From Acidimicrobiaceae bacterium (GTDB lineage Bacteria > Actinomycetota > Acidimicrobiia > Acidimicrobiales > RAAP-2): 64,000 nucleotides of DNA. Position 1 is the first letter of the stretch. Each line of letters opens with the position of its first letter. This document shows positions 841-16,068 of this stretch, in pieces. The stretch lies in NCBI GenBank assembly GCA_003132205.1, contig PKWY01000046.1:1121-65120 (forward strand), written 5' to 3'. The notes below the pieces were generated by a model. It saw only the letters and a list, made by a program, of their open reading frames with translations. It had not been told where the DNA came from and searched no databases. The position numbers and the translations under genes are program-made.

Positions 841-1389
841 TTACTGGCTTCTTGGAATTGGACTAACAGGTTCCTCGACGGTGCTGATATGTCCGAGTAC
901 GAGGCGCAGGAGTCGAGCCAGCTCTCGTTGCTCAGCCAGCGTGAGCGCTCCCACGGCAAGCGTTTCGTGGCGGTTGAATTGGGGAAACAGCGTTTCGATC
1001 AATCGCTCACCGGCCTTGGTAAGCGCAATCGAAACTCGGCGCCGATCGTCGCGATGGGGGAGTCTGCGAATCAAGCGCCGAGACTGAAGTGTCTTGATCA
1101 CTCCAGTGAGCGTGCCCTTCGTGATACCGGCTTCCGATGCGACGTGGCCCGTTTCTTGGGTACCCCAAATCCACAGCACCCACAGGACAGTGAACGCCGC
1201 CCAACTCAGGTCGTACTCGCTCAACACCGAGCGTTCCATGTGGTTGCGGACCGCCGATCCTGAACGGTAGATGTTCGAAACTGCGCTCATGGCCGTGAAG
1301 TCCAGCTCGTGGTCGCTGAGGCGGCTGCGGATGTCCTGCTCGGCGGCCGAAACGACCGAAGCACGAGAACTGGCGATCTTCTTGGACAT
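841..1389 (-). CDS. MarR-family transcriptional regulator
   Basis: The 182-aa protein has the MarR winged-helix layout: an N-terminal dimerisation helix, a helix-turn-helix around residues 80-105 (ASEAGITKGTLTGVIKTL), and the wing motif with PHRDDRRRVSIALTKAG near residues 110-125, where the DxRRR signature is intact. MarR proteins usually repress catabolic or resistance genes and release DNA when they bind an aromatic acid or CoA-thioester. It is the last gene of a tight minus-strand operon; its ATG lies 2 nt after the stop of the acetoacetate-decarboxylase-like gene. It is therefore the best candidate to bind the palindrome CGTTTG-N4-CAAACG found at three promoters of this island. That link is inference. 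Confidence 0.9.
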   Translation of the reverse strand: MSKKIASSRASVVSAAEQDIRSRLSDHELDFTAMSAVSNIYRSGSAVRNHMERSVLSEYDLSWAAFTVLWVLWIWGTQETGHVASEAGITKGTLTGVIKTLQSRRLIRRLPHRDDRRRVSIALTKAGERLIETLFPQFNRHETLAVGALTLAEQRELARLLRLVLGHISTVEEPVSPIPRSQ

Positions 1390-1391
1390 CC

Positions 1392-2186
1392 TTAGGCTTC
1401 GAGCGTTCTGCCGCCGGCGAAAGTGGTGCCAATCGAGCGGAAATATCCGCCGATGATCTCGCGCGGAGAAATGGAGAGCAACTCCTCGCTTGGCGATTCG
1501 AAGAGTTCGAGCGTCGCACTACCCCCGAAGGCGGGGCCGAGGTCCGCGTCGACTCCCGACATGGTCACGACCTCGGCCAGGCTGTCGCGACCGTCGAGCT
1601 CGATGCCGGGGAACCAGCGGTGGTGGAGCATGGCGTGGCCGTTGACGAATCCGTTGGTGTCCGATGCCTCCGCGAGCGTTACCGTCGCTTCGGCGAGTCG
1701 TCGATCGCTGGCGGCGAGGGTCATGCCGAAGACCGCTCCGGACTCGAGGCGAGGGCCAGCCCTTCCGCGGGTCACAGGACGGGTCTGATGGATCGAGCCC
1801 AGCTTCTTCGGGTATCCCTGAAGGTAGCCACGGACGAGCGCAAAATCCTTGTCGACCCAGATGAAAATGCAGCGGCTGTAGACCTGACCCTGGTAGCGAC
1901 AGCGCACGACGACGAACGCCTCGCGGTACTGGGAACGCACCGGGTCGAGCAGCTCTGTACCGTCGGCGCCGCAACTCTGCCAGTCGGCCCAGATGAACGC
2001 CACCGCGCCGGGATCCTCGTTGTCGTTGACGAGCGTGACGCCCTCGGGAAGCAGCGCGGCAATCGCCGAGGGGTCGGTCCGGTACTCGACCGTCAAGAGG
2101 TCTCCCGAGTAGTGCCACGGAGGCGACGGCAGGAGCGACGCTCGGCCGCTGGCTGTGCGCGGGAATGGCAGTCCCTTGAGCGTCAT
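1392..2186 (-). CDS. Acetoacetate decarboxylase family protein
   Basis: The 264-aa product matches the acetoacetate decarboxylase (ADC) superfamily in length and in landmarks: an N-terminal strand with VEYRTDP and LLPEGVTL, then the GYLQGYPKKLGSI segment. In ADC the equivalent GEPKK-type segment carries the Schiff-base lysine pair, and here PKK is present. ADC relatives act on beta-keto acids or catalyse aldol-type reactions. The start is ATG 2186, which overlaps the hpaD stop in an ATGA arrangement and has AAGGAG about 6 nt upstream; the long in-frame extension upstream is not used. Its place between hpaD and marR suggests it handles an acid from ring cleavage, but the substrate is unknown. 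Confidence 0.85.
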   Translation of the reverse strand: MTLKGLPFPRTASGRASLLPSPPWHYSGDLLTVEYRTDPSAIAALLPEGVTLVNDNEDPGAVAFIWADWQSCGADGTELLDPVRSQYREAFVVVRCRYQGQVYSRCIFIWVDKDFALVRGYLQGYPKKLGSIHQTRPVTRGRAGPRLESGAVFGMTLAASDRRLAEATVTLAEASDTNGFVNGHAMLHHRWFPGIELDGRDSLAEVVTMSGVDADLGPAFGGSATLELFESPSEELLSISPREIIGGYFRSIGTTFAGGRTLEA

Positions 2187-3070
2187 GCCTTCTCCTTGGT
2201 CCATCCGCCGGCCGGTCGGTCGAACCACACGTGGACCTGTCCCGTGCCGATGGCGTTTTCGTACTCCGAGAACAGCCGTCCCTCGGCCACGCACTCGGTC
2301 CCTCCGAGGGCCGCGACCATCATCTGGTAATGGCCAAAACGTCCCTCGGGCTTGACCGCCAGGAACGCTCCTAGTCCACTGATCACCGAGGCGTGGTCGC
2401 CGCGCAGCCAGGCGTCGATGACGCTGTGGTCGGCGTCGCGCGACGCGGGAGAGAAGATGTGCTCTTCACCAGCCGCCTCGTGGCTGCGAAGAGTGCGCAG
2501 CGTGTGGAACGTGTGGCTGAGCGCTCCCGAGGCGATCAGCACTACTCGCAGGTCGCTCTGAGCAACCGCTTCGGCGAGGACGCGTCCCACGGTCTCAAAG
2601 TCAGCCGGCTCGGCTGTCTGACAGACGCTGAGCGAGATCCACGCCTCGTCGCCCTGCAGGAAACCCAGGAAGTTTGTGGTGGCGTACGTAATTGGGAGAT
2701 GCTCATTGTCGACCGGAGTGATCCAGCACTCTGGAGTGTTGTCGGCGATTCGACCGACCAGCTTGGCGAACTCCGGATTGCCCGGAATGTCGTAAGGGAC
2801 GCTCGACATCCCGCGAGGCAGCTCGTCGGAGGTGTAGAGGCCCTTGCGGCGCTCGTGAGCGCTGATCACGAACTCCACGGTCGTGAACCAGTGGCTGTCG
2901 AGAACGATCACGAGGTCGGGCTTCAACTCGTCGAAGACCTCCCGCTTGAGCCGATGCAGCCCCGTGTAGAGCGTGCTCTCCTCGCCGTTGTTGAGCGCGC
3001 GGCGCTCGCCGTCTGGCAAGACAATTGTCGGGACGTGCGCCAGCACCCCCGCGCCGATGATTTCACCCAT
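2183..3070 (-). CDS. hpaD: Class III extradiol ring-cleavage dioxygenase, homoprotocatechuate 2,3-dioxygenase-like
   Basis: The 295-aa protein belongs to the LigB/HpaD class III extradiol dioxygenases, which use Fe(II) to cleave a catechol ring next to the hydroxyls. Candidate iron ligands are His12 (LAHVP) and His60 (DSHW), with a late Glu near the C-terminus before GTGQVHVWF. His186 in SGALSH matches the conserved SGSLSH segment of the family. The motifs GLYTSDELP, YDIPGNPE and GTGQV resemble E. coli-type HpaD, which acts on 3,4-dihydroxyphenylacetate. hpaE overlaps it upstream by 8 bp and the ADC-like gene overlaps downstream by 4 bp, so these genes are co-translated. Exact ring substrate is unproven; a related catechol is possible. 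Confidence 0.88.
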   Translation of the reverse strand: MGEIIGAGVLAHVPTIVLPDGERRALNNGEESTLYTGLHRLKREVFDELKPDLVIVLDSHWFTTVEFVISAHERRKGLYTSDELPRGMSSVPYDIPGNPEFAKLVGRIADNTPECWITPVDNEHLPITYATTNFLGFLQGDEAWISLSVCQTAEPADFETVGRVLAEAVAQSDLRVVLIASGALSHTFHTLRTLRSHEAAGEEHIFSPASRDADHSVIDAWLRGDHASVISGLGAFLAVKPEGRFGHYQMMVAALGGTECVAEGRLFSEYENAIGTGQVHVWFDRPAGGWTKEKA

Positions 3071-4529
3071 GAGTGGTGCCTTCCTTTACTTGGTAGGTCT
3101 TCAGGTCGCTGTAGAAGTCGAGGGCGTAGTCGCCGCCTTCACGCCCGATGCCGCTGACGCCGGTCCCTCCGAAGGGGGCGGTCAGGTCCCTCACGAGAAA
3201 GCAGTTGACCCAGACGGTGCCGGCACGAACGGCGCTGGCGACGCGGTCGGCCTTGGCCTGGTCGCTCGTGTAGACGATGGCGGAGAGTCCGTAGGGCGTC
3301 GAGTTCGCCAGGCGGATGGCCTCGTCCTCGGTCTCGAACGCCTGGAGTGTCAGCACGGGTCCGAAGACCTCGTTCTGGACGATCTCGGAGTCGTTTGAGC
3401 GCGGTTCGATCAGCGTCGGCTCGAACCACAGGCCGTTAGCTGCCAGACGATGGCCACCGAACACCAAGCGGTCGCCCTCGGACACGGCGCGGTTCACGAA
3501 ACCCTCGACGCGCTCCAGGTGCTGGGGGTGGATGAGGGGCGACATGGTGGTTGTGGGGTCGCGGCTGTCGCCGAGGATGTGGCGTCCGGCGGTTTCGGTG
3601 AAGCGCTCAACGAAGGCGTCGCGGCAGCTCGACTCGACGAGCAACCGGGTGCCGGCGAGGCATACCTGTCCGGCGTCGTCGTACATCAACGCGGCCTTCT
3701 CGGCCGCGGCGTCGAGGTCCGCGTCGGAAAAGACCATGAACGGTCCCTTGCCGCCGAGCTCGGCCGTGAAGGGGACCAGGTTCTTCGCCGCGGCGACGCC
3801 GATTGCTCGCCCGGTCGCGGGCGAACCGGTGAAGGAGATCCGCCGCACGCGCGGGTCGGCGACCAAGGCCGCGCCCACCTCGGAGCCGATGCCCTGGACC
3901 ATATTGAAGACGCCCCGCGGGAAAGCGGCGTCGTCGACGAGGTCCATCAAGAACGAGCAGCTGAGCGGCGACCATTCGGCGGGCTTGAGGATGACGGTGT
4001 TGCCGGCGGCGAGCGCGGGCGCACACTTCCATGTCGAGAGCATGAAGGGGGCGTTCCAGGGGGTGATGACCGCGCTCGGCCCGGCGGGCATGCGCAGCAC
4101 CGTGTTGTGGGTGCCGTTGGAATCCCACTGGCGCGCTTCGTAGGCAACGGCGAGGTCGGCGTAAGCACGGAAGTTGCGAGCTCCGCGCCCGATAACCCTG
4201 AGGCGCAGGCTCTCTTCGAGCATGGCCATGTCCAGACATTCGACGGCGGCGATCCGCTCGACGTTGGAGTCGATCAAATCCGCCAGGCGGTGGAGATAGC
4301 CCTGACGCTCCACGGTCGAAAGTGCGGCCCAAGCGGGGAAGGCTTCGAGCGCTGCCGATACGGCAGCGTGGGCTTCGGCCTCGCCGCCACGCGCGACGTC
4401 GGCGAGCTTCAGGTCCCAGTCGAGCGGGGAGCGATCTTCGAAGGTCGTGGCGGACTGGACTCGCACACCGTCGATGAAGTGCCCGGTCGCGACCTCGACC
4501 CCGGCGACACTCACCCTTTCGACGATCAT
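3063..4529 (-). CDS. hpaE: Aldehyde dehydrogenase, 5-carboxymethyl-2-hydroxymuconate semialdehyde dehydrogenase-like
   Basis: The 488-aa NAD(P)-dependent aldehyde dehydrogenase has all catalytic landmarks: Asn159 (TPWNAPF), Lys182 (LKPAEWSP), the FTGSPATGRAIG nucleotide loop, Glu257 (TAELGGKGP) and the nucleophile Cys290 (AGQVCLAG). The start is ATG 4529, which overlaps the hpaG-like stop as ATGA; a long in-frame extension upstream to 4967 lies within hpaG and is rejected. Between HpaG- and HpaD-like genes the obvious role is oxidation of the ring-cleavage semialdehyde to the dicarboxylic acid. The ALDH fold alone would not prove this; the assignment rests on context. Confidence 0.87.
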   Translation of the reverse strand: MIVERVSVAGVEVATGHFIDGVRVQSATTFEDRSPLDWDLKLADVARGGEAEAHAAVSAALEAFPAWAALSTVERQGYLHRLADLIDSNVERIAAVECLDMAMLEESLRLRVIGRGARNFRAYADLAVAYEARQWDSNGTHNTVLRMPAGPSAVITPWNAPFMLSTWKCAPALAAGNTVILKPAEWSPLSCSFLMDLVDDAAFPRGVFNMVQGIGSEVGAALVADPRVRRISFTGSPATGRAIGVAAAKNLVPFTAELGGKGPFMVFSDADLDAAAEKAALMYDDAGQVCLAGTRLLVESSCRDAFVERFTETAGRHILGDSRDPTTTMSPLIHPQHLERVEGFVNRAVSEGDRLVFGGHRLAANGLWFEPTLIEPRSNDSEIVQNEVFGPVLTLQAFETEDEAIRLANSTPYGLSAIVYTSDQAKADRVASAVRAGTVWVNCFLVRDLTAPFGGTGVSGIGREGGDYALDFYSDLKTYQVKEGTTHG

Positions 4530-5419
4530 GACTGATGCCGGGGAAGCACGCGAGGGTAGGGGAGTGTGGAGCGCTCGGTGGGGTTGGGCCTGCGCTGGCC
4601 GCGAAACTCCCAGTCGCCTCCCAGGGCCGTCGAGAGGACCTCCTCGGTCGAGGTCGGCTGGGCGCCGACCTCGTCGCTCACCGGATCGGGGGAGGCGACG
4701 ACGTAGTTCGTGAGTGCACCGAGACCCTCGACCTCGACGGTCACGACGTCGCCGGGCTGCACGGGACGCGAGAAGGCGGGTGTTCCAGAAAGGATGATGT
4801 CGCCCGGAAGCAAGGTGATCAAACGCGCCATGTCGGTGACGAGGTAGTGCATGTCCCACGCCATCTCGTCGGTCGAGCCGTCCTGAAGCACGTTGCCGTT
4901 CACGAGCGTGCGCATCGACTTGTGGTGGAAGTCCCAGTCGGTGACGACGCCGGGCCCGACGGGGCAAAGGGTGTCGGCCCCCTTGACGCGGAGCATTGAC
5001 CCGGCGTCGGTATCGCGGAAGTCGTGTAGTCCGAAGTCGTTGGCGATGGTGTAGCCCGCGATGAAGTCAGCCGCATCGGCCAGGGCGATGTTGCGCGCGA
5101 TGCGTCCGATCACGATGGCGACCTCACCCTCGAAGTTGAGGTAGTGGCAGTTGGACGGACGCACGACGTCACCGCCGTGAGCGTTGAGTGCCGATACCGG
5201 CTTCTGGAACCACGTAGGCGCGGGTGGCAGCTCGACCTCGAACTCGCGCACGCGCGAAACGTGGTTGAGGTGACAGCAGAGGATCTTGCTCGGTACGACT
5301 GGAGGAAGGTGCTGCGCCGTCGCCGCCTCGACTCGCCGACCATCGTTCGTGACGAGCATGTCGCCGTCGCGCGTCGCGTCGAGAGCGACGCCGTCGAGAA
5401 GAATTCGGCGATACTCCAC
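4526..5419 (-). CDS. hpaG: Fumarylacetoacetate hydrolase-family protein, HpaG-like isomerase/decarboxylase
   Basis: The 297-aa protein has the FAH catalytic domain, with conserved HLNHVSR, PTWFQKP, the metal ligands in NFEGEVAIVIG, and GDIILSGTP. It resembles enzymes that decarboxylate or isomerise 5-carboxymethyl-2-oxo-hex-3-ene-1,7-dioate in homoprotocatechuate degradation. I place the start at GTG 5419, preceded by GGAGG (short spacing); the family typically begins just before YRRILLDG. An ATG at 5485 would add 22 residues without family likeness, has no ribosome site, and would put the operator at 5434-5449 inside the gene. It is the first gene of hpaG-hpaE-hpaD-ADC-marR and is divergent from the GS-like gene. 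Classical HpaF, HpaH and HpaI are not seen in the window. Confidence 0.85.
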   Translation of the reverse strand: MEYRRILLDGVALDATRDGDMLVTNDGRRVEAATAQHLPPVVPSKILCCHLNHVSRVREFEVELPPAPTWFQKPVSALNAHGGDVVRPSNCHYLNFEGEVAIVIGRIARNIALADAADFIAGYTIANDFGLHDFRDTDAGSMLRVKGADTLCPVGPGVVTDWDFHHKSMRTLVNGNVLQDGSTDEMAWDMHYLVTDMARLITLLPGDIILSGTPAFSRPVQPGDVVTVEVEGLGALTNYVVASPDPVSDEVGAQPTSTEEVLSTALGGDWEFRGQRRPNPTERSTLPYPRVLPRHQS

Positions 5420-5433
5420 AGCCCTCCAGAAGT

Positions 5434-5449
5434 CGTTTGTATTCAAATG
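5434..5449. promoter_or_regulatory. Palindromic operator, copy 1 (hpaG / GS-like divergent promoter)
   Basis: CGTTTG-TATT-CAAATG, one mismatch from a perfect 6-4-6 inverted repeat. It lies between the hpaG-like start at 5419 and the GS-like start at 5519, where it could control both directions. Confidence 0.6.
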
Positions 5450-5450
5450 G

Positions 5451-5478
5451 TTGCTCCACACTACAAACTCCGTACGCT
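5451..5478 (+). promoter_or_regulatory. Candidate promoter of the GS-like gene
   Basis: TTGCTC, 16 nt, TACGCT, about 35 nt before the expected leader end at ATG 5519. The operator at 5434-5449 sits directly upstream of the -35. Confidence 0.35.
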
Positions 5479-5518
5479 GGGGCATGCTATTTTCGCCAAA
5501 GTCACAGTGGAGGGAATT

Positions 5519-6808
5519 ATGAGCGAATCATTCGACCGCGTCAGGGTCCTCTGGCCGGATCACCTGGGCCTCGCACGAGGCAAGTACGTCCCGGCGTCCC
5601 TGGCGGACAAGGGCACCCACCACTGCACCGGCACCTGGTCGCTCGGTTACGACCGAGGCATGACGCCCGGCACGGTCGGCAGCTACTGGGACGAGGGCCT
5701 GCCCGACTTCGACGCTACCTACGACATGTCCGATCTTCGTCCCAGCTGGGAGGAGGGAACCCGCGTGGTCGTGGCCGACGTCGAACGTCACGGCGTGCCC
5801 TTCTCGGTCTCCCCGCGCACCGCGCTGCACAAGGCAATCGCCGACTGGCGCACCCAGGGCTACGAACCCTACGTGGGCATGGAGTTCGAGGCCTACGTGT
5901 TCACGCCTGACGGCCAAGGGGGATGGAAGCCGATGGAGACGCCCGGGGCCTTCGTGTACGGCACCGGTCCGAGCGTCGACCCCCACGGGCTCATCGACGC
6001 CATCTGGGCGGCCTGTGCCATGGCCGACGTGCCGCTCGAGTCGGTCAACTCCGAGTACGACTCGCCGCAGTTCGAGTTCACGCTGCGCTACACCAACGCG
6101 CTGCGATCGGCCGATGACGGCTTTCTCTTCAAGGTGCTGGCGCGCGAGGTGGCGCACCGCTTCGGATTGCTGCTCAGTTTCATGGGCAAGCCCATGTCCG
6201 ATCGCGGTGGGTCGGGCCTGCACTTCAACTTCTCGTTCCGCAACGACGAGCAGGAGAACGTGATCAACGACGCCGCGAAGCCCGACGGGCTCTCGGACCT
6301 CGCCATGCACTCGGTGGGCGGGCTGCTCGCGCACCATCAGGCCCTGGCGGGACTCTGCGCGCCGACGGTCAACGCGTACAAGCGCCTGCGCCCGGCTTCG
6401 CTGTCGGGCTACTGGGCCAACTGGGGCTACGACCACCGCGGTGCGACGATCCGGATCCCCAATGAGCGCGGCGCCGCCGCCCGGCTCGAGCACCGCCTCA
6501 GCGACGGCGGGGCAGTGGTCCATACGTCGATGGCGGCCGTGCTCCAAGCGGCGTTGCTGGGTGCGAAGTCCGAGACGAATCCAGGTCCCGCCGAGAGTGG
6601 CAACGGCCTCGACACCATCGACGCCACCGTCGGCGTGCCGCCCACGCTCTCGGCTGCCCTGGACGCGCTCGAGGCCGACGAGGAGCTCGTCGCGGCCGTG
6701 GGTTCCGATCTCGTGGCCCAGCACGTCGCTGTCAAGCGTGCGGAGTGGGAGCGCTACCTCAGCGCCACGACCGACTGGGAGCTGCGCGAGTACCTGCCGT
6801 TCCTCTAG
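5519..6808 (+). CDS. Glutamine-synthetase-like ligase (probable gamma-glutamyl-amine ligase)
   Basis: The 429-aa protein has the GS catalytic fold with metal and substrate residues in order: Glu122/Glu124 (GMEFEAY), Glu179 and Glu186 (SEYDSPQFE), His235 (GSGLHFNFS), NAYKRLRP near 285-292 and the RIP...EHR block near 311-326. The adenylylation loop Tyr motif of true GlnA is not seen. Relatives of this length ligate glutamate to amines (PuuA for putrescine, IpuC for isopropylamine, the aniline gamma-glutamylating enzymes). ATG 5519 has GGAGGGA 3-4 nt upstream; the long in-frame extension before it lies inside hpaG on the other strand and is rejected. The PuuD-like hydrolase and APC permease close by support a gamma-glutamylated amine route. 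Confidence 0.85.
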   Translation: MSESFDRVRVLWPDHLGLARGKYVPASLADKGTHHCTGTWSLGYDRGMTPGTVGSYWDEGLPDFDATYDMSDLRPSWEEGTRVVVADVERHGVPFSVSPRTALHKAIADWRTQGYEPYVGMEFEAYVFTPDGQGGWKPMETPGAFVYGTGPSVDPHGLIDAIWAACAMADVPLESVNSEYDSPQFEFTLRYTNALRSADDGFLFKVLAREVAHRFGLLLSFMGKPMSDRGGSGLHFNFSFRNDEQENVINDAAKPDGLSDLAMHSVGGLLAHHQALAGLCAPTVNAYKRLRPASLSGYWANWGYDHRGATIRIPNERGAAARLEHRLSDGGAVVHTSMAAVLQAALLGAKSETNPGPAESGNGLDTIDATVGVPPTLSAALDALEADEELVAAVGSDLVAQHVAVKRAEWERYLSATTDWELREYLPFL

Positions 6809-8049
6809 CGCCAGGTGACACGGATCGGCAGCTGCTTGGTGCCGCCGATGAAGTTCGAACGAAGGCGCTCTGACGGACCCGCCGATTCGACCGACGACCA
6901 CCGCGCGGCGATCTCTTCGAAGAGCACGCGCATCTCTAAGCGCGCGAGGTGCGCTCCCAGGCAGAGGTGCGGGCTGAAGAGACCGAAGGCCACGTGGTCG
7001 TTGTGCGCGCGGTCGGCGCGGAATTCGTACGGGCTGTCGAAGTGGTCCTCGTCGAAGTTCGCCGAGGTGAACCACATGACGACCTTGTCGCCGGCCTTGA
7101 TGGTCTTGGCGCCGATCTCGACGTCCTGGGTGGCGGTACGACGGAAGTGCATGGTCACGCTCGACCAGCGGAGCATCTCCTCGACCAGCCCCTTGCGCTG
7201 CTCGAGGGTCATCGACGGAAGCTGGGCGAAGAGATCGGGCCGCTCGATGAGTGCCTGGAGGCCCGCGGTCATGGAGTAGCGCGTCGTGTCGTTGCCGGCA
7301 GCGACCATCAGCGTGAAGAAGTTCTGCAGGGCGAGCTCGTCAAGCGTGTCGCCCTCGACCGTGGTCTCGAGCAGCGAGGAGAGGACGTCGTGGGTCGGCG
7401 TGATGCGCCGCTCCTCGAGGGCCTGACTGGCGTACTCGAAGAGCTCGAGCGACACCGGACTGCGAAAGGGCAGGAGGCGGTAGGCGGACGTGTCGACTTG
7501 ATCGACGACGTACTCGGTGAAGTCAGGGTCGGTATTGCCGATGAGAGCGTCGCCACGCAGTACCAGCCACTCGAGGTCCTCGTTCGGCAGCCCGAGCAGG
7601 CGTCCGAGCATCCGCATGGGCAGACCGCGCGACACGCTCGAGACGAAATCGAACTCGTCCTTGCCCTTCAAGGAGTCGAGCAGGTCCACGGCGATCTCGC
7701 GAACGGCGTCTTCGTAGGTGGCGATCGACTTCGGGGCGAAGGGTCGGCTGACGAGTCGACGGAGGCGGGTGTGCTCGGGAGCGTCCATCTCCATCAGCGT
7801 GCGGCGCGCTTCGGTCTCCTCCTCGTCCATGTCCTCGAGGCGGATGCCTTGGCGGCTGGAGAAGATCTCGCTGTGGCGGCTCGCGAAGACGACGTCCTCG
7901 TGCTTGGTGAGGCTCCAGAATCCCCGGCCGCCGTCGCTCTCCTCTGTCCAGTGCACCGGGTCGTTCGCGCGCAGGTACGCGAACGTCTCGTGGGGCACGC
8001 CGTCGACGAAGGTGTCGTGCGAAGTGATGTCCTTCAGCGGTTCTGTCAT
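6805..8049 (-). CDS. Cytochrome P450
   Basis: The 414-aa soluble bacterial P450 has an I-helix AGNDTT at 251-256, a K-helix E291-x-x-R294 pair, and the haem cysteine Cys363 within AFGLFSPHLCLGAHLAR. The length of the haem loop equals that of CYP125-type enzymes (FGGTGAHYC), but both glycines after FG are replaced, giving FGLFSPHLC, which is unusual. Start ATG 8049 has GAGGGAG 5 nt upstream. It converges on the GS-like gene with a 4-bp overlap and is divergent from the PuuD-like gene across an operator palindrome. The shared regulation suggests it oxygenates the amine or its gamma-glutamyl derivative; no adjacent redox partner is present. Confidence 0.93.
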   Translation of the reverse strand: MTEPLKDITSHDTFVDGVPHETFAYLRANDPVHWTEESDGGRGFWSLTKHEDVVFASRHSEIFSSRQGIRLEDMDEEETEARRTLMEMDAPEHTRLRRLVSRPFAPKSIATYEDAVREIAVDLLDSLKGKDEFDFVSSVSRGLPMRMLGRLLGLPNEDLEWLVLRGDALIGNTDPDFTEYVVDQVDTSAYRLLPFRSPVSLELFEYASQALEERRITPTHDVLSSLLETTVEGDTLDELALQNFFTLMVAAGNDTTRYSMTAGLQALIERPDLFAQLPSMTLEQRKGLVEEMLRWSSVTMHFRRTATQDVEIGAKTIKAGDKVVMWFTSANFDEDHFDSPYEFRADRAHNDHVAFGLFSPHLCLGAHLARLEMRVLFEEIAARWSSVESAGPSERLRSNFIGGTKQLPIRVTWR

Positions 8050-8072
8050 GGGGCTCCCTCGAGCGAAGTCTC

Positions 8073-8088
8073 CGTTTGCGTCCAAACG
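8073..8088. promoter_or_regulatory. Palindromic operator, copy 2 (P450 / puuD-like divergent promoter)
   Basis: CGTTTG-CGTC-CAAACG, a perfect 6-bp inverted repeat with a 4-nt centre, 24 bp upstream of the P450 start. Neighbouring bases (CTC before, ATTG after) also resemble copy 1. Confidence 0.65.
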
Positions 8089-8123
8089 ATTGGGCTATTA
8101 CAGCACATCGCTGACGCGGCCCG

Positions 8124-8129
8124 TACTAT
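8124..8129 (+). promoter_or_regulatory. -10 element (TACTAT), leaderless promoter of the puuD-like gene
   Basis: TACTAT, then ggcaac (6 nt), then ATG 8136. No Shine-Dalgarno precedes the gene. Confidence 0.55.
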
Positions 8130-8135
8130 GGCAAC

Positions 8136-8864
8136 ATGGCGAAACCCCTAATCGGCATTTCCGGGCGCAGATTGCCGGCGACGATGCTGGGGACGCACCT
8201 GCCGGCCGCCATGAACTCGCTGCGCTTCGACCTGCACTTCTCGGACTATCCGAAGTCGATCGCCGCCGCCGGGGGACTGCCGGTCGAGCTCGCCCGCGAC
8301 GCCGACGTCGACGGTATCATCGAGCGCCTGGACGGGTTGGTGCTGAGCGGGGGAGCGGACCTCGATCCTTCGCTCTACGGCCGTGAGTCCCATCCCAATC
8401 TCGGATCGCTCGAGCGCGAGCGTGACGAGTGGGAACTGGCGCTGCTGATGGCGGCGCGCAAGAGCGACATGCCGGTCCTGGCGATCTGCCGCGGGTTCCA
8501 ACTGGTGAACGTGGCCTTCGGCGGCACGCTGCATCAGCACGTCGAACTCGAAGAGGGCGCGGGGCACCCTCAGTGGGACGTCGACGGTCGCACCGCGACC
8601 CACGAAGTGGAGGTCCTCGCCGGCACGCTGACCTCGAAGATCCTGCCTTCGCAGTGGCCGGTGAACTCACTTCACCACCAGACGGTCGACACGGTCGGTG
8701 AGGGCCTGACCATTTCTGCCACCGCGCCCGACGGTGTGGTCGAGGGGCTCGAGACCCCCGACGGGAACCTGCTCGCGGTCCAGTGGCACCCTGAACTTCT
8801 TGCGGCACCCGACCCGACTTTTCTTTGGCTGGTGCGCGAAGCCGGCATTCGTCTCAGCCAATGA
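8136..8864 (+). CDS. Class I glutamine amidotransferase-like gamma-glutamyl hydrolase (peptidase C26, PuuD-like)
   Basis: The 242-aa enzyme has the C26 pattern: LDGLVLSGGADLDPSLYG near 65-82, the nucleophile Cys118 in AICRGFQ, GGTLHQ, and the His218/Glu220 pair in VQWHPE. Such proteins hydrolyse gamma-glutamyl amides; the best-known is PuuD, acting on gamma-glutamyl-GABA. ATG 8136 is likely a leaderless start. With the GS-like ligase this gives a make-and-break pair for gamma-glutamyl intermediates, as in putrescine or aniline-type pathways. The acyl acceptor is unknown. Confidence 0.88.
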   Translation: MAKPLIGISGRRLPATMLGTHLPAAMNSLRFDLHFSDYPKSIAAAGGLPVELARDADVDGIIERLDGLVLSGGADLDPSLYGRESHPNLGSLERERDEWELALLMAARKSDMPVLAICRGFQLVNVAFGGTLHQHVELEEGAGHPQWDVDGRTATHEVEVLAGTLTSKILPSQWPVNSLHHQTVDTVGEGLTISATAPDGVVEGLETPDGNLLAVQWHPELLAAPDPTFLWLVREAGIRLSQ

Positions 8865-8865
8865 C

Positions 8866-8894
8866 TTGACTTGGTTCGTTTGACCCCGTACGGT
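8866..8894 (+). promoter_or_regulatory. Promoter of the APC permease (TTGACT-17-TACGGT)
   Basis: TTGACT at 8866-8871, a 17-nt spacer and TACGGT at 8889-8894 form a good sigma70-type promoter. A degenerate copy of the island operator lies within the spacer and -10. Confidence 0.6.
8877..8892. promoter_or_regulatory. Degenerate palindromic operator, copy 3 (permease promoter)
   Basis: CGTTTG-ACCC-CGTACG: the left arm is identical to the other copies, the right arm matches CAAACG at 4 of 6 positions. It overlaps the spacer and -10 of the promoter, a typical repressor position. Confidence 0.4.
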
Positions 8895-8946
8895 TTCGCA
8901 ACGGCTGAAGCCAGCCAGAGCGGGTCAAATCCAAATCGGGGGGAAA

Positions 8947-10425
8947 ATGACTGGTAGTAAAACGGCCAAGACGTCGCTGGGCGGCAAGCGAAAGCTGACG
9001 CTGATTGACACGATCGCGCAGTCAGTGGGACTGATGGGGCCAGTGTTCTCGATCGCGTTCCTCGTGCCGCTGCTCGTCGGTCTCAACGCGTCGGGTAACG
9101 GCGCCGGCGGTGCGGCGTCGCTCGCGGTGATCATCGCCGCCGTGGGCGTGCTCGGACTCGGGTGGATCGTGGCGGAGTACACGCGCAAGATCCAGGCCGC
9201 CGGGTCGCTCTATGACTACGTGACCGACGGCCTCGGCAGTCGGGTCGGAACGGCCGCGGGATGGCTCTACTACACGGGCATCCTGGCCCTGGGCGCGGGA
9301 ATCCTGCCGATGATCGGCGGGACGATCCACGACACGTTGCTGGCGGAGTTCAACGTGGCGCCGTTCTCCTACCTCGTGTGGGACATCCTGCTCTTCGCGC
9401 TCGTCGCGATCGTCATGTTCTTCGGCGTCGTGCTCTCGACGCGCATGCAGCTGACGCTGGCCATGATCTCGATCACGGTCGTGCTGGTCTTTTCGATCGT
9501 CGTCATCGTCAAGAGCGGCGGCGTGCACCACCTGGCGACCGGATTCTCGCCCCACAGTTCACCCACCGACTGGAAGGGGATCCTCTTCGGCGTGCTCTAC
9601 GGCGTGCTCTTGTTCACTGGATTCGAGACTTCGGCCAACCTGGGAGAGGAGACCGAGAATCCTCAGCACAACATCCCACGGGCGGTGCTGATCTCGGTGC
9701 TCGCGATCGCCGGCTTCTACGTCATCGGCACGTACGCCCAGGTGTCGGGTTACCACTTCAGCATGAACCTGCTGGGCAAGAACTCGGGCGCTCCCTTGTT
9801 CGGCCTCGCGGGTCCGGCGTCGGCCGGGGGATACGCCTCGGTGTGGATACGTCGCCTCGTGGAGCTCGTCGTGATTTTCGACATGATCGCGGTCCTCATC
9901 GGGTGTGCCGTCTCGGCGTCGCGCGGTATCTTCGCGCTCTCGCGCGACCGTCGACTGCCCTCGGCGTTGAAGAAGATCTCTCGTCACGGCACGCCCACCG
10001 GCGCGAGCAACATCGTGATCGGGATCTACGCCGTCGTGATCGCGCTCGTGACCTGGACGACGGTGTTCGCGTTGCCCGGCGGCACGCCGGAGTACGCGTC
10101 GATGTTCGTGTGGATGTCGACCTACGGCGGGTTCGCGATCGCCGCCATCTATCTGCTGATCTCGGTGGGGGCGCTGCGCGGTCTGCGCAGCGTCGGCAAG
10201 ACCTGGCAGCTCTACTCGGCCAGCACGGTCGGGGGAGTGGTGACCGCCGCGGCGATCTTCGGCGCGATCTACAAGGTGACCGCACCCACCGTCTACGCGC
10301 CCTATACGGCGGTCGTGATCCTCGTGGTCGGTCTGGTGGCGGCGGGGATGATGCCCGAGGCGCCGACCGGGACGGCGGACTTCACCGGCCTGGCTGAGGC
10401 CGAGGAGGGTCCGATCAAGATCTGA
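8947..10425 (+). CDS. APC-superfamily amino acid/amine permease
   Basis: The 492-aa protein has about twelve hydrophobic helices starting near residue 22 and the APC signature around LFTGFETSANLGEETENPQHNIPRA in the middle (consensus family segment: a Gly-Phe-Glu stretch followed by acidic residues and PRA). Members import amino acids or amines by proton symport or exchange. ATG 8947 follows GGGGGAAA. It is transcribed from its own promoter at 8866-8894 and shares the island operator motif. Its position directly after the PuuD-like gene makes it the likely importer of the substrate. Confidence 0.92.
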   Translation: MTGSKTAKTSLGGKRKLTLIDTIAQSVGLMGPVFSIAFLVPLLVGLNASGNGAGGAASLAVIIAAVGVLGLGWIVAEYTRKIQAAGSLYDYVTDGLGSRVGTAAGWLYYTGILALGAGILPMIGGTIHDTLLAEFNVAPFSYLVWDILLFALVAIVMFFGVVLSTRMQLTLAMISITVVLVFSIVVIVKSGGVHHLATGFSPHSSPTDWKGILFGVLYGVLLFTGFETSANLGEETENPQHNIPRAVLISVLAIAGFYVIGTYAQVSGYHFSMNLLGKNSGAPLFGLAGPASAGGYASVWIRRLVELVVIFDMIAVLIGCAVSASRGIFALSRDRRLPSALKKISRHGTPTGASNIVIGIYAVVIALVTWTTVFALPGGTPEYASMFVWMSTYGGFAIAAIYLLISVGALRGLRSVGKTWQLYSASTVGGVVTAAAIFGAIYKVTAPTVYAPYTAVVILVVGLVAAGMMPEAPTGTADFTGLAEAEEGPIKI

Positions 10426-12015: not shown

Positions 12016-12783
12016 ATGAATCCACTCTTTGACGTCTCAGGCAAGGTCGTACTCGTCACTGGCGGCAGCCGAGGCATCGGCGAGATGATCGCGCGAGGCT
12101 TCATCGACGCCGGCGCGAAGGTCTATATCTCGTCTCGCAAGGCCGACGCGTGCGATTCGTTGGCGGCCGAACTCTCCAGGAACGGGGAGTGCATATCGTT
12201 GCCCGCCGACCTCTCGAGCGAAGCGGAGTGCCGTCGCCTCGCTGGCGAAGTCGCCTCGCGTGAGACCCGTCTCGACGTGCTGGTCAACAACGCCGGGGCG
12301 ACGTGGGGTGCGCCCATGGCCGACTACGACGAGGCCGCCTTCGAGCGGGTCCTGGCGCTCAACGTGAAGGCGGTCTTTCACGTGACCAAGTTCCTGCGGC
12401 CCCTGCTCGAGGCGTCCGGCACCCCCGAGAACCCGGCACGGGTCATCAACATCGGTTCCATCGACGGTCTGCACGTGCCGGCCCTCGAGACCTACGCCTA
12501 CTCGGCCTCCAAGGCCGCCGTGCACCAGCTGACGCGCCACCTCGCCAAGTTCATGGCGCCCGACGTCACCGTGAACGCAATCGCCCCCGGTCCCTTCGAG
12601 TCCAAGATGATGCGAGCCACCCTGGAGGCGTTCGGCGAGCAAATCGCCGCCAGCGCGCCCTTGAAGAGGATCGGTCGGCCCTCGGACATGGCCGGGGCGG
12701 CCATATTCCTCGCCTCCCCCGCCGCGAGTTACATCACCGGCGTCGTGCTCCCCGTCGACGGGGGCATCTCGACGCTGAATTAG
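12016..12783 (+). CDS. Short-chain dehydrogenase/reductase
   Basis: The 255-aa classical SDR has TGGSRGIG at residues 15-22 for the NAD(P) Rossmann fold, NNAG near 93, the active-site YSASK motif near 161, and the C-terminal GVVLPVDGG. The sequence resembles 3-oxoacyl-ACP reductase-like or gluconate dehydrogenase-like SDRs; the substrate cannot be read from sequence. SRK in the second strand region (ISSRKAD) suggests NADPH preference. It overlaps the convergent htrA gene by 4 bp. Confidence 0.9.
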   Translation: MNPLFDVSGKVVLVTGGSRGIGEMIARGFIDAGAKVYISSRKADACDSLAAELSRNGECISLPADLSSEAECRRLAGEVASRETRLDVLVNNAGATWGAPMADYDEAAFERVLALNVKAVFHVTKFLRPLLEASGTPENPARVINIGSIDGLHVPALETYAYSASKAAVHQLTRHLAKFMAPDVTVNAIAPGPFESKMMRATLEAFGEQIAASAPLKRIGRPSDMAGAAIFLASPAASYITGVVLPVDGGISTLN

Positions 12784-14138
12784 CTCGCGGGCTGAGTGCC
12801 GAGCGTGATGTGCAGGGTGAGGCGCTTCGTGCCGCGCACGACCTTCAGGGTGATCCGGTCGCCCGGGTGTAGGCCCGAGAGCACGCTCGTGAGGTCCTGG
12901 GCACCGTTGATGGTCGTGGCGTTGATGCCGATGATGATATCGCCCTGCTTGACGCCGCCTGACGCCGCGCCCGTTCCCGCGATCACGCTCATCACCACCG
13001 CGCCCGTGGAGATGCTGAAGCGGTACTCCGCCTGCACCGTTGGAGTGTTCGACATGATCTCGACACCGATGAAGGCGTGGTGGTTCACCACGCTCTCGCC
13101 GGCCATCAGCGACTTGAGGAGCGACTGTATCGTCGCGGCTGGGATGGCGAAGCCGATGTTCTGAGCGCTCGTGCCGTCGGGCAAGGTCCCCGCGACGGCG
13201 GTGTTCATTCCGATTACGTCACCTTCGGAGTCGAGCAGTGGTCCACCGGAGTTGCCGGGGTTGATCGCGGCGTCGGTTTGGATCATGTTGTTGAGGGTCT
13301 CGGTGGTGCTGGCCGTGCCGGCCGTCACGGTGCGTCCCAGCGCCGAGACAATCCCCTGGGTCACGGTCGGAGTGCCGGCGGCGAGGCCGAGCGCGTTTCC
13401 AATCGCGACCACGGCGTCACCCGCTTCGAGCGCGTTCGAGTTCCCGAATGTGATCGTGGGCAGTCCCGACGCACCGTTGATTCGAATGAGGGAGACGTCG
13501 TCGATGGGATTAGTGCCGATCAGCGTAGCCGGGAGGCTCTTAGTGGACCCCGAGCGAGTCACGGTGATCGTGCCTCCTCCGACCGCCGCGGCGATCACGT
13601 GGTTATTGGTGATCACGAGCCCGCTCTTGGTGATGATCATGCCGGTGCCCTGGTCTTCAGATCCCCCACCCGTGACGTCAATCGAGACGACCGACGGAAG
13701 GAGCCTATGGACCAGGGTCGGGATGCTCATCCCGCTAGGCAGGACCGCCGCGCCCGGTGAGTTGGTGACGGCGTTGATCGTCACGCCGCCGGGACCGCCC
13801 GAGGAGGGTGCTGCGTAGTGACCGGCGAGACCGCCGACCAGGGCCGCCACCAAGAGCAAAGAAATACGCCCAGACCAAGGAATACGTGACGTTCGGCCTT
13901 GCGAGGACAGCGGCGCCGCGTCCGCCAGCGCTGCGGCTCCGCCACGCTGAAGGTACGGTTCCGGCTCGGGCGCTCGAGCACTCCCCTGTTCGCCATCCCC
14001 AAGGTGAGGGGCCGGGCTCGTGGCGGAGTGGTCGCTGCTCAAAGCGTCGGGCGCGCGGACCTCTTCGCTCGGCGAGCGAACTTCGGCGGATTCGACTTCG
14101 GGCGTGCCCTCTGGGCTCTCGGTGGGGAAATCACTCAC
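12780..14138 (-). CDS. htrA: Membrane-anchored HtrA/DegP-type serine protease with PDZ domain
   Basis: The 452-aa protein has a disordered, acidic cytoplasmic N-terminus of about 90 residues, one membrane helix at about 91-109, a trypsin-like domain with the triad in TNNHV (His), DDVSLIRI (Asp) and NPGNSGGPL (Ser), and a C-terminal PDZ domain ending in LHPGDRITLKVVRG. It is expected to degrade misfolded proteins outside the membrane. The start is GTG 14138: TATCAT lies exactly 6 nt upstream, and the alternative TTG 14159 lies upstream of that -10. It is convergent with the SDR and divergent from the gene at 14224. Confidence 0.92.
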   Translation of the reverse strand: MSDFPTESPEGTPEVESAEVRSPSEEVRAPDALSSDHSATSPAPHLGDGEQGSARAPEPEPYLQRGGAAALADAAPLSSQGRTSRIPWSGRISLLLVAALVGGLAGHYAAPSSGGPGGVTINAVTNSPGAAVLPSGMSIPTLVHRLLPSVVSIDVTGGGSEDQGTGMIITKSGLVITNNHVIAAAVGGGTITVTRSGSTKSLPATLIGTNPIDDVSLIRINGASGLPTITFGNSNALEAGDAVVAIGNALGLAAGTPTVTQGIVSALGRTVTAGTASTTETLNNMIQTDAAINPGNSGGPLLDSEGDVIGMNTAVAGTLPDGTSAQNIGFAIPAATIQSLLKSLMAGESVVNHHAFIGVEIMSNTPTVQAEYRFSISTGAVVMSVIAGTGAASGGVKQGDIIIGINATTINGAQDLTSVLSGLHPGDRITLKVVRGTKRLTLHITLGTQPAS

Positions 14139-14223: not shown

Positions 14224-15642
14224 ATGTCTCGCCGAATTGAGATCGAAATCACTAGCTTGCAGGGCGACGTCGCTACGTGGCGCGCCGCGGGCGCGAAGCT
14301 CCCCAAAGGAGTGCTCAGCGCATCCTTGGTACCGGGAGGTCCCGTCGTTGGCAACGTGTACCGGGCCGACATCGAGCAGATGATGGAGGGAATCGAGATC
14401 CTTTCGGTGATGGCTCCCAAGACCGCCTCCCCCCTCGACCCCCGTCACGAGCGCCTCGAGCTGATCCCGAGCGCGAAGACCGGACCGGACGTGATCGTTA
14501 CCTACGCCCCCAAGGGTCGAGGAGGCGCGCGTCGCGACGGCGAGCGACGCGAGGGTGAGGGCCGCCGTGACGGCGCCAAGCGCCCCTCGAGCCGTCCGAC
14601 TTCCAAGGACCGCCCCGCGTCGGCGGAGCGACCCGACCGCGCGCCACGCGCCGAAGGCTCGGAGCGTGGACCTCGCACTGAAGGCAGCGAGCGCGGACCG
14701 CGTCCCGAGCGCAGCGAGCGCGGACCGCGTCCAGAACGCACCGAGCGAGGCCCACGAAGTGAGAGCACCGGACGTGGGGGCCCTCGCGTCGAGAGTGGTC
14801 GCGGCGGACCTCGCAGCGAGCACGCCGGCCGCACCGGTCGACCGGGCCGAGGCGAGCGCCCGAGTGGTCCCGTCCAACCGCCGATGACGACGACGCACCG
14901 AAACGCTCTCCTCGCAACCCTTTCCCCTGAGCAGCTTCCCGTAGCCGAGCAGTTGCTGCGCGGCGGCATGCCGGCCGTTCGCGCGGCGGTCGCTGAGCAG
15001 AACAAGAACGCCACCGCTCAAGGTCGCACGACCATCGACCCGGCGACCATCGACCGGATCGCGGAGGACCTGCTCGGCAGGACCACTCTCGCGCTCTGGA
15101 AGGACCGTGCCTCCGGCGCCGTCGGTGCCGGCAAGGAACTGCGACTCCGGGACCTGCGCGCGGTCGTGACTTCGGCCAAGACCGTCTCGTTGGACGAGGA
15201 GTCTCGCGCCCAACTGAAGGAACTTCAGGCCGCGCTGAGCGTGCGTCTGGAAGCGCTGCGGGTCCAGTGGACCGAGCGCCTCGAGACCGCCATTACTTCT
15301 AAGAACGTTCCCGAGGCCCTTCGTCTGGTCGCGAGCCCGCCGGACATGTCGACGCGCGTCAGCGGTGAGACGGCGACCAGGGTCGTGGCATTGACATCCG
15401 AGGCCCTCACGAGCGAGCAGGATGTTGCTCGGTGGAAGGAAATCGTGAACCTGGCGGTCGACACGTCGATCCGTCGCAACGTGAAGCCGCAGGGCATCCC
15501 GGCCGACGAGTCCTGCAAGGCCCTCGCAATCAAGAACGCGGGAGCGATACCTGAACTAGCCAAGCTGCTGGGCATGAAAGTGCCACCCCCGCCGCCACTG
15601 ACGCGTCCAGCGCGCCGCGTGGTTACTCGCCGCGCATCGTAA
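14224..15642 (+). CDS. Repeat-containing basic protein of unknown function
   Basis: The 472-aa protein has three parts. Residues 1-95 form a compact, probably beta-rich domain (MSRRIEIEITSLQGDVATW, later ADIEQMMEGIEIL). Residues about 96-220 are a low-complexity Arg/Gly/Glu/Pro linker with near-repeats of SERGPRPE and later RGGPR units. Residues about 222-460 are helical, with LSPEQLPVAEQLL and long charged helices, ending in a poly-proline and basic tail (PPPPPLTRPARR). RGG-like linkers often bind RNA, so an RNA-associated role is possible, but I recognise no family. The ATG at 14224 sits 8 nt after a -10; the earlier in-frame starts lack support. Its end overlaps the convergent GNAT gene by 20 bp. 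Confidence 0.85.
   Translation: MSRRIEIEITSLQGDVATWRAAGAKLPKGVLSASLVPGGPVVGNVYRADIEQMMEGIEILSVMAPKTASPLDPRHERLELIPSAKTGPDVIVTYAPKGRGGARRDGERREGEGRRDGAKRPSSRPTSKDRPASAERPDRAPRAEGSERGPRTEGSERGPRPERSERGPRPERTERGPRSESTGRGGPRVESGRGGPRSEHAGRTGRPGRGERPSGPVQPPMTTTHRNALLATLSPEQLPVAEQLLRGGMPAVRAAVAEQNKNATAQGRTTIDPATIDRIAEDLLGRTTLALWKDRASGAVGAGKELRLRDLRAVVTSAKTVSLDEESRAQLKELQAALSVRLEALRVQWTERLETAITSKNVPEALRLVASPPDMSTRVSGETATRVVALTSEALTSEQDVARWKEIVNLAVDTSIRRNVKPQGIPADESCKALAIKNAGAIPELAKLLGMKVPPPPPLTRPARRVVTRRAS
14660..14830 (+). repeat. In-frame tandem-like coding repeat (SERGPR units)
   Basis: Degenerate copies of a unit coding for [GRT]-[ST]-E-R-G-P-R-[PTS]-E recur about every 27-30 bp, with identical blocks such as gagcgcggaccgcgtcc seen twice, then shift into RGGPR units. 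They make the flexible linker of the 472-aa protein. Confidence 0.7.
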
Positions 15643-16051
15643 GAAGCCGCGCCTTCCACCCAATTGACTCATAGAGCGACTTGGTCGCCCGGTCCCCCGG
15701 CAGCGCCAGAGCGTCCACGGGAGGGTTGTCACTGTTCGCGAGCGTGGCCAGGATAGAGCGAGCGACTCCTTGGCGCCGATATGCGCGCTCGACGTGCAGC
15801 AGCTCGATGAGCCCATCTCGACAGAGCGCAAACCCTAGAAGCGCGTCGTGATCGTCGCGTGCGACCCACACGCACCCGGCGCCGATCAGATGCTCAGCCC
15901 GTTCGCTGTCGGTTCGACCCTGACGGATCGTCTCGACGACCTCGCGTCCTCCGCGCCACTTGACGCACTCTTCGAGCGCGTGGCTCCACAGCAACAAGAA
16001 TTCGGGATCGAGCTCCGTGGCGACGCTGACGCTCGCGCGCTGTGCCGGCAC
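15623..16051 (-). CDS. GNAT-family N-acetyltransferase
   Basis: The 142-aa product contains the acetyl-CoA binding motif A segment LLHVERAYRRQGVARSIL (R/Q-x-x-G-x-G/A pattern) after strands FALCRDGLIE, and the following motif B with NPPVDALALPGDRATKSLYESIGW. The substrate is not predictable. The start is uncertain: GTG 16051 begins 17 nt after the DUF4193 stop and seems best, while the reading frame itself stays open to 16138 inside DUF4193. It is probably co-transcribed with the DUF4193 gene. Confidence 0.75.
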   Translation of the reverse strand: MPAQRASVSVATELDPEFLLLWSHALEECVKWRGGREVVETIRQGRTDSERAEHLIGAGCVWVARDDHDALLGFALCRDGLIELLHVERAYRRQGVARSILATLANSDNPPVDALALPGDRATKSLYESIGWKARLLTMRGE

Positions 16052-16068
16052 GCCGCGTTGACTTACGC

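Follow-up and report, generated by a model that had tools for sequence, protein, structure and literature searches.

Gene content of the block

The window analysed here is a stretch of 64,000 nucleotides from an Acidimicrobiaceae bacterium (assembly GCA_003132205.1, contig PKWY01000046.1, positions 1,121 to 65,120), and nine genes on two strands fill its positions 841-10425 (families assigned with Pfam and NCBIfam; Table 1). A minus-strand run, MarR-ADC-HpaD-HpaE-HpaG, is read leftwards from HpaG at about 5419, while the right part of the block holds a glutamine synthetase (GS)-like gene (+), a cytochrome P450 gene (-), a PuuD-like gene (+) and an APC permease gene (+). An initial annotation of this DNA had placed the nine genes at or very near the same coordinates and in the same families. 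The block is almost certainly one catabolic unit. It may well serve the breakdown of tyramine and/or dopamine (phenolic phenethylamines) in a form whose nitrogen is masked, a proposal on which we consider the balance to be about even.

Table 1. Genes and putative operator sites of the block (positions in the window; paired scores are the score obtained and the NCBIfam equivalog cut-off)
Feature	Position	Strand	Basis
MarR-family regulator, HpaR-like	841..1389	-	PF01047 42 bits; HpaR best NCBIfam model, 45 vs cut-off 121
ADC-superfamily enzyme, MppR-like	1392..2186	-	PF06314 174.8 bits; MppR model (TIGR04460) 213.7 vs 380; PDB 4jm3, 4zbo
LigB-type extradiol dioxygenase, HpaD-like	2183..3070	-	PF02900 78.9 bits; HpaD_Fe (TIGR02298) 115.7 vs 316; PDB 8iq8 65.6 bits
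HpaE-like aldehyde dehydrogenase (ring-cleavage semialdehyde, predicted)	3063..4529	-	PF00171 481 bits; HpaE best, 497 vs 638
HpaG-like isomerase/decarboxylase, FAH family	4526..5419	-	PF01557 174.5 bits; HpaG-C 194 vs 276; GTG start inferred
Putative operator CGTTTG-N4-CAAATG before HpaG/GS	5434..5449	.	1 mismatch
GS-like gamma-glutamyl-amine ligase (predicted)	5519..6808	+	PF00120 246 bits; PuuA (NF045547) 207 vs 650; best PDB glutamate-methylamine ligase 9qur, 193 bits
Cytochrome P450, proposed ring hydroxylase	6805..8049	-	PF00067 78.6 bits; PDB 8vxi (CYP125 ancestor) 361 bits
Putative operator CGTTTG-N4-CAAACG between P450 and PuuD	8073..8088	.	exact
PuuD-like gamma-glutamyl amide hydrolase (predicted), peptidase C26	8136..8864	+	PF07722 200 bits; PuuD (NF008471) 102.9 vs 266
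Variant putative operator CGTTTG-N4-CGTACG before permease	8877..8892	.	2 mismatches
APC-family permease	8947..10425	+	PF00324 99 bits, PF13520 90 bits

Three of the adopted starts depart from the raw list of open reading frames (ORFs), namely those of the GS-like, HpaG and P450 genes. The GS-like start was set at ATG 5519 because its first Met is invariant in 25 aligned homologs. HpaG most likely begins at GTG 5419, which has GGAGG upstream; the raw ORF runs to 5485, and ATG 5485 is disfavoured because the operator described below would then fall inside the gene. The P450 start was taken as ATG 8049 instead of TTG 8085.

Co-inheritance of the block within the genus

The GS-like and HpaD genes are inherited together. 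Of 37 same-genus genomes, 22 carry both orthologs, 14 carry neither and one has the GS-like gene alone. A GS-like ortholog (at least 69% identity) is present in 23 of the 37, the window's own genome included, and an HpaD ortholog (at least 70%) accompanies it in 22 of these 23 genomes and in 0 of the 14 that lack it (Fisher p = 2.5e-9, a value that ignores the relatedness of the genomes). In the exception, G004, the contig with the GS-like gene is 5.1 kb long and stops at HpaG. The P450 ortholog (at least 65%) is distributed in the same way, 22/23 and 0/14, if a 91-residue fragment in G005 is disregarded. That fragment (G005:C46:91532-91801), in a same-genus genome without the cluster, is 90% identical to residues 1-91 of the P450 and may be a relic of the gene or an error of assembly.

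The neighbourhood has been conserved as well as the genes. In the 22 same-genus loci besides the window we found HpaG in 22, HpaE and HpaD in 21 each, ADC in 20, MarR in 19, the P450 in 17, and PuuD and a same-type APC permease in 11 each; gene order is largely kept and seven loci have all nine genes, several contigs ending inside the block. One of these loci (L040) is a second full copy on another contig of the window's own genome, with a GS-like protein 76% identical to that of the window. Co-inheritance and largely conserved order led us to reject the reading of the block as unrelated neighbours. The initial annotation had joined a gamma-glutamyl-amine ligase and HpaD-type meta-cleavage in one island and had pointed to conservation of the neighbourhood as its check; the two halves do co-occur, and they share the putative operator considered next.

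Some loci contain additional genes. One encodes an F420-type LLM oxidoreductase and lies close to PuuD, APC or ADC; another encodes a second P450 and lies near the permease; a locus may have either or both. The coordinates of these extras in L040 are 12603-13550 and 15162-16376; the LLM gene is also found in L051, L055, L079, L091-L093, L103-L105, L107, L128 and L132, and the second P450 in L055, L060 and L093. In the window, the permease gene is followed by two genes of the CrcB family (PF02537; 10474-10833 and 10830-11246, both minus strand), and such a pair likewise lies downstream of the second copy (L040 16390-17195, minus strand).

A shared putative operator

The palindrome CGTTTG-N4-CAAACG is present, exactly or with one or two mismatches, at each of the three promoter regions in Table 1, and its natural reading is as a putative MarR operator. 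It is not enriched across the window, where 11 matches with up to three mismatches compare with 25.4 expected; we therefore rejected it as a window-wide feature and retained it as a promoter-placed, conserved site, the case for which is made by its place and its conservation. Sites with up to two mismatches were compared with expectations from single-base shuffles, in loci that are related and hence not independent draws. Upstream of GS, one was found in 44 of the 55 loci whose GS identity is at least 64% (0.3 expected). The interval from P450 to PuuD holds one in 37 of 38 loci (0.1 expected), and 16 of 29 have one before the APC gene (0.2 expected), the last figure rising to 27 of 29 (2.2 expected) at up to three mismatches. 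These sets take in the window and the second copy in its own genome. The site fades with distance, being found upstream of GS in just 5 of 29 loci with GS identity of 50-64%. The earlier suggestion that an operator common to the units ties them together is thus borne out by position and by conservation across relatives.

Properties of the encoded enzymes

The GS-like protein has E122, E124, E179, E186, H235, R312, R322, E324 and R326 in common with the best-scoring GS of its own genome; we take these residues to be those of gamma-glutamyl-phosphate formation. Its ASLSGY segment aligns with GGEAPV of that GS (taken as GlnA), which sets Leu295 opposite a Glu that is presumably the ammonium-site flap Glu of true GS. 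Leu295 is invariant in 25 aligned GS-like homologs, and the SLSG motif is common to the protein and the methylamine ligase 9qur. Because the glutamyl-phosphate residues are kept and Leu295 replaces the Glu, as in 9qur, the protein very probably performs the gamma-glutamylation of an amine, like the glutamyl organic amide synthetases of the PuuA/AtdA1/NpaA1 class, most of which have an additional 15th motif at the N-terminus (PMC11335346). The PuuD-like protein belongs to the C26 family, and its CRG and QWHPE catalytic motifs align with those of 3fij and 7d4r.

Neither of these proteins reaches the cut-off of its Puu equivalog model, and the HpaD-, HpaE- and HpaG-like proteins likewise score below the equivalog cut-offs of the homoprotocatechuate pathway (Table 1). 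The enzymes of the block are therefore related to the textbook Hpa and Puu enzymes but probably differ from them.

The ADC protein passes the PF06314 cut-off and fails that of the MppR equivalog. The first Lys of its PKKLG motif is aligned in both 4jm3 and 4zbo and is, we assume, the active-site Lys. No HpaH or HpaI was recognised by Pfam or NCBIfam among the nine genes, the rest of the genome not having been searched for them, and HpaF was not recognised in the block. We propose that the ADC-superfamily enzyme is a hydratase-aldolase that would stand in for HpaH/HpaI. In PMC7820114, MppR is reported to act as an aldolase and a role for an ADC-family aldolase in meta-cleavage is suggested for Sso1221/Sso1222 in phenol degradation by Saccharolobus.

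A GS-like protein, a glutamine amidotransferase (GATase), an oxygenase and catechol cleavage also make up the logic of aniline catabolism (PMC11335346), and the HpaD-like protein matches 2-aminophenol dioxygenases too. The block could on this basis degrade a ring amine (aniline or an aminophenol) by an AtdA/TdnQ-type route in which the P450 replaces the Rieske dioxygenase. We regard this as very improbable: none of the nine genes encodes a Rieske dioxygenase, and the amino-acid decarboxylases and PuuC-like genes found in related loci have no obvious place with anilines.

Related loci in other bacteria

When 84,980 species genomes were scanned, the pattern was matched 222 times; 194 of the matches were confirmed and the best 80 kept; 51 of these have GS identity of at least 64% (close loci) and 29 fall below it (distant loci). 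The closest named entries are Acidimicrobiaceae metagenome-assembled genomes (MAGs) with isolate names in palsa_, bog_ and fen_, together with MAGs of other Acidimicrobiales and actinobacteria. The close loci contain HpaG in 50 cases, HpaE in 49, HpaD in 47, ADC in 44, the P450 in 42, MarR in 40, PuuD in 35 and APC in 27. In one order-level relative (G053), a NicX-like protein is encoded directly before the GS-like gene, besides the HpaD-like gene (L039 5536-6627, plus strand); it matches the 2,5-dihydroxypyridine dioxygenase 7cn3 with 180 bits.

According to their record titles, the distant loci come from Nitriliruptoraceae, Anaerolineales/Anaerolineae, Thermoflexales, Deinococcales and other Acidimicrobiales and actinobacteria (ORFs of those with high GC were called with a codon-usage caller). 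Their order is shuffled, and the P450 is present in 24 of the 29, HpaE in 21, ADC in 19, HpaG in 17, PuuD in 15 and MarR in 13. A ring-cleavage gene is found in 17, as a LigB-type HpaD in 12 or a type-I VOC HpaD in five and never as both; the VOC enzyme of L132 has HpaD (TIGR02295) as its best model (107.5 against a cut-off of 321) and shares 50-67% identity with the remaining four. In L121 (13663-14757) and L132 (9234-10337), Chloroflexota-type loci without PuuD, there is a beta-lactamase-family hydrolase that may replace it; L128 and L133 have PuuD and lack this hydrolase. Weak homologs (24-25%) are found in L056, L057, L085, L110, L117 and L123.

Two kinds of additional gene in the distant loci bear on the substrate. 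Amino-acid decarboxylases (PF00282) occur in 16 of the 29 loci, against an expectation of about 0.5 genes at the decarboxylase density of the same-genus, not the distant, genomes. The L133 decarboxylase has DOPA decarboxylase 7xin as its best PDB match (714 bits) and is 73% identical to that of L128, while the L113 decarboxylase matches 4obu best (213 bits). L133 also encodes a tyrosine decarboxylase (TyrDC)-like protein, for which TIGR03811 is the best model (302 against a cut-off of 905), with homologs in L121 (62%) and L128 (78%, partial). In all, three distant loci have decarboxylase genes of DOPA- or tyrosine-decarboxylase-like type. The genes of L121 form a row on one strand, MarR-HpaE-APC-TyrDC-GS-P450-HpaD-hydrolase-ADC-HpaG. 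Secondly, PuuC-like aldehyde dehydrogenases are encoded in five distant MAG loci. PuuC is the best model for those of L113 (597 bits, next model 507) and L103 (559, next 468), against a cut-off of 850, and those of L118, L120 and L124 are close homologs (74-79%). The extra aldehyde dehydrogenase of L139 resembles succinate-semialdehyde dehydrogenase and not PuuC.

Related clusters also occur on plasmids. Matches were found in 666 plasmid records, and five of the seven loci that we examined follow the same logic as the window cluster. Plasmid pSLUN1 of Streptomyces lunaelactis (L166) contains a PF00282 gene, HpaG, HpaD, HpaE, a PuuC-like gene, a PuuD-like gene, ADC, MarR, a GS-like gene and a permease gene. 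PuuC is the best NCBIfam match of its extra aldehyde dehydrogenase, below the cut-off, and the PF00282 gene is annotated as an aminotransferase, with tyrosine decarboxylase as its best NCBIfam model (129 against 905). Two Embleya plasmids, whose records carry no gene annotation, have HpaG, HpaD, HpaE, PuuC-like, PuuD-like (35%), MarR, ADC, GS-like and P450 genes. The Streptomyces canus locus comprises HpaG, HpaD, HpaE, ADC, a ferredoxin reductase, ferredoxins, GS-like and P450 genes, and that of Novosphingobium EMRT-2 comprises MarR, HpaD, P450, GS-like (50% identical to that of the window), HpaE, ADC and HpaG genes, a 2Fe-2S ferredoxin gene and a second aldehyde dehydrogenase gene whose best model is not PuuC. 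Redox partners for the P450 are encoded in these last two loci.

The S. lunaelactis copy lies about 10 kb from a non-ribosomal peptide synthetase gene, and the best model of the window's ADC protein is the biosynthetic MppR, so that a biosynthetic or detoxifying cluster might be considered in place of a growth pathway. In many bacteria, genes for the ring cleavage, dehydrogenation and decarboxylation of a lower meta pathway stay together, and a biosynthetic or detoxifying function seems to us highly unlikely.

A candidate masked-amine pathway

Gene families, co-inheritance and the shared operator can be read in the sequence itself, and from them we infer each of the reactions that follow. The APC permease would import the amine or its amino acid, and the GS-like ligase would convert tyramine to gamma-glutamyl-tyramine, to which the P450 would add a second ring hydroxyl, giving gamma-glutamyl-dopamine. 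The HpaD-like enzyme would open the ring next to the catechol, the HpaE-like enzyme would oxidise the semialdehyde, and the HpaG-like enzyme would remove the carboxyl made by HpaE as CO2. The ADC enzyme would then hydrate the 2-oxo-enoate and cleave it by a retro-aldol reaction. If the ring of N-gamma-glutamyl-dopamine is treated like that of homoprotocatechuate, this aldol step releases pyruvate and gamma-glutamyl-4-aminobutanal, and the computed atom balance closes on the latter compound. A PuuC-type dehydrogenase, whose gene is linked to the cluster in some relatives but not in the window, would produce gamma-glutamyl-gamma-aminobutyrate (gamma-glutamyl-GABA), which the PuuD-like hydrolase would split into GABA and glutamate. 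MarR would repress the genes until an aromatic inducer is present.

Gamma-glutamyl-4-aminobutanal is the substrate of PuuC and gamma-glutamyl-GABA is that of PuuD. The gamma-glutamate would thus act as a protecting group from hydroxylation through ring cleavage and decarboxylation to the aldol step, and the route would join the Puu pathway at gamma-glutamyl-4-aminobutanal; we hold the arguments for and against this idea to be about equally strong, and the same is true, approximately, of its central premise, that the glutamyl group is retained through ring cleavage. The idea explains why PuuA-, PuuC- and PuuD-like genes occur without PuuB, why the meta-cleavage genes fall short of the homoprotocatechuate cut-offs, and why copper amine oxidase and HpaB were not found in the window's own genome. 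Class-III aminotransferases (PF00202; 12 matches in the window's own genome, two of them fragments on C10) could take the GABA in the manner of GabT.

Were this pathway to operate, it would convert the ring to pyruvate, CO2 and GABA with no amine oxidase involved, and it would constitute an unrecognised route for the breakdown of tyramine or dopamine, and hence of tyrosine. An ADC-superfamily hydratase-aldolase would be a new lower-pathway enzyme, and the MppR-like ADC enzymes would gain a role in catabolism. The route would be spread over uncultured Acidimicrobiales of palsa, bog and fen, several other phyla, and plasmid-bearing Streptomyces, Embleya and Novosphingobium, and it would suggest how bacteria avoid reactive aminobutanal and dopamine by-products. 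Its specific prediction is that gamma-glutamyl-GABA is formed from an aromatic amine.

Evidence on the substrate and the order of reactions

The initial annotation had favoured a tyramine- or dopamine-like amine whose side chain leads to homoprotocatechuate. In such a route the glutamylated amine would be oxidised next to the nitrogen, through N-dealkylation by the P450 or by an unlinked oxidase, the aldehyde would proceed to homoprotocatechuate, and the HpaD, HpaE, HpaG and ADC enzymes would turn the classical intermediates into pyruvate and succinate semialdehyde. The Hpa-like enzymes are closest to families of the homoprotocatechuate pathway, and the PuuC-like protein of L113 also scores 504 for phenylacetaldehyde dehydrogenase. 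Of the five PF01593 matches in the window's own genome (2.9 Mb, 60 contigs, 93% complete), one is a full-length flavin amine oxidase homolog (C5, 146 bits), which speaks for oxidation of the side chain and weighs against a masked nitrogen. Neither copper amine oxidase (PF01179) nor HpaB (PF03241, 4-hydroxyphenylacetate 3-hydroxylase) was found in this 93%-complete genome, however; the Hpa-like scores stay below their cut-offs and the PuuD-like hydrolase would be left without a clear task. PuuC-like and PuuD-like genes also occur together in several distant loci, which, with HpaB and copper amine oxidase missing, fits retention of the glutamyl group and gamma-glutamyl-GABA as a late product. 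We consider it unlikely that the side chain is attacked first. The amine class proposed earlier probably stands, given the decarboxylase-like genes of the distant loci, and homoprotocatechuate as the product is probably wrong.

Several further observations count against the masked-amine pathway, and some of them concern its hydroxylase and its hydrolase. The P450 is nearest to CYP125/CYP124 structures in the PDB, and CYP125 and CYP124 are known as hydroxylases of alkyl chains and not of phenols. In five of the 22 same-genus loci the P450 is absent from the stretch examined, two of these being cut by a contig end; in G001 and G031 it lies 12-14 kb away. PuuD is missing from its place between neighbours that are themselves present in four of the 22 (L045, L048, L058, L059). 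No P450 was found in the examined stretch of the S. lunaelactis plasmid, where the decarboxylase matches its family weakly (89.5 bits), and no PuuC-like, PuuD-like or decarboxylase gene was found in the Novosphingobium and S. canus loci. The remaining two plasmid loci have a GS-like gene without Hpa genes: in Arthrobacter citreus it is 31% identical and accompanied by acetamidase and permease genes only, while on the megaplasmid of Ruegeria sp. TM1040 (L163) P450, GS-like and GATase genes lie near those of a class-III aminotransferase and a PuuC-like aldehyde dehydrogenase and near paaABCD, in what is possibly a related amine pathway.

Other adverse points concern the linked partners. A search with bait proteins found neither a decarboxylase (1.1 expected by chance) nor a PuuC-like gene in the stretches examined of any of the 51 close loci, so a linked decarboxylase was rejected for the window's close relatives. 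In the window's own genome, the six PF00282 genes sit on other contigs, and the closest homolog of PuuC (47% identity) is not linked to the block, so that dehydrogenation would fall to an enzyme encoded elsewhere. Thirteen of the 29 distant loci have no decarboxylase, four of them on contigs of less than 10 kb. The decarboxylases of L113, L119, L125, L128 and L133 have 2,4-diaminobutyrate decarboxylase as their best NCBIfam model, far below its cut-off, and what suggests aromatic specificity is confined to the PDB matches and the TyrDC-like genes.

Since no decarboxylase is linked in the close loci, the amine may be imported. This, together with the merely predicted function of the P450, gives some room to the same architecture acting on another phenolic amine, for example an O-methylated phenethylamine, with the P450 as an O-demethylase, or an N-alkyl catecholamine. 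The DOPA- and tyrosine-decarboxylase-like partners in some distant loci point instead to amines derived from tyrosine, and another phenolic amine is in our estimate distinctly unlikely. For the masked-amine pathway, tyramine or dopamine is the likely substrate class, supported as it is by those decarboxylase-like genes.

Comparison with known systems

The putrescine pathway of E. coli consists of PuuA, PuuB, PuuC and PuuD. A gamma-glutamyl ligase and a hydrolase of the gamma-glutamyl-GABA type are encoded here also, with a PuuC-type dehydrogenase in some relatives, and the two pathways are predicted to have gamma-glutamyl-4-aminobutanal and gamma-glutamyl-GABA in common. They differ in that the block is without a PuuB oxidase, its aldehyde would arise by ring cleavage and not by amine oxidation, and the window proteins fall below the PuuA and PuuD cut-offs. 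Meta-cleavage of 4-hydroxyphenylacetate via homoprotocatechuate uses HpaBC and HpaDEFGHI. The adjoining HpaD-, HpaE- and HpaG-like enzymes and MarR regulator resemble that system, whereas here HpaB is missing from the genome, HpaF, HpaH and HpaI were not recognised in the block, and an ADC enzyme is present instead. The morpholine and piperidine operons of mycobacteria also pair a P450 with a GS-like partner for amines; they are not known to have ring-cleavage genes. The ADC protein resembles MppR and 4zbo in sequence and in its aligned Lys, but MppR is biosynthetic and the reverse reaction, cleavage, is proposed here.

The systems for aniline and 1-naphthylamine (AtdA, TdnQ, NpaA1-A5) likewise combine a GS-like glutamyl organic amide synthetase (GoaS class), a GATase and an oxygenase, and the substrate of the oxygenase is the glutamylated amine (PMC11335346). 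Their Rieske dioxygenase turns that amine into the diol; here a P450 takes its place, and we propose that the amide outlasts ring cleavage. Among the papers listed in searches of the open-access literature, no title or abstract opening brings a gamma-glutamyl ligase and ring cleavage together with tyramine or dopamine. The parts of this system are thus known, and it is their combination and the masked-amine logic that appear to be new within that literature.

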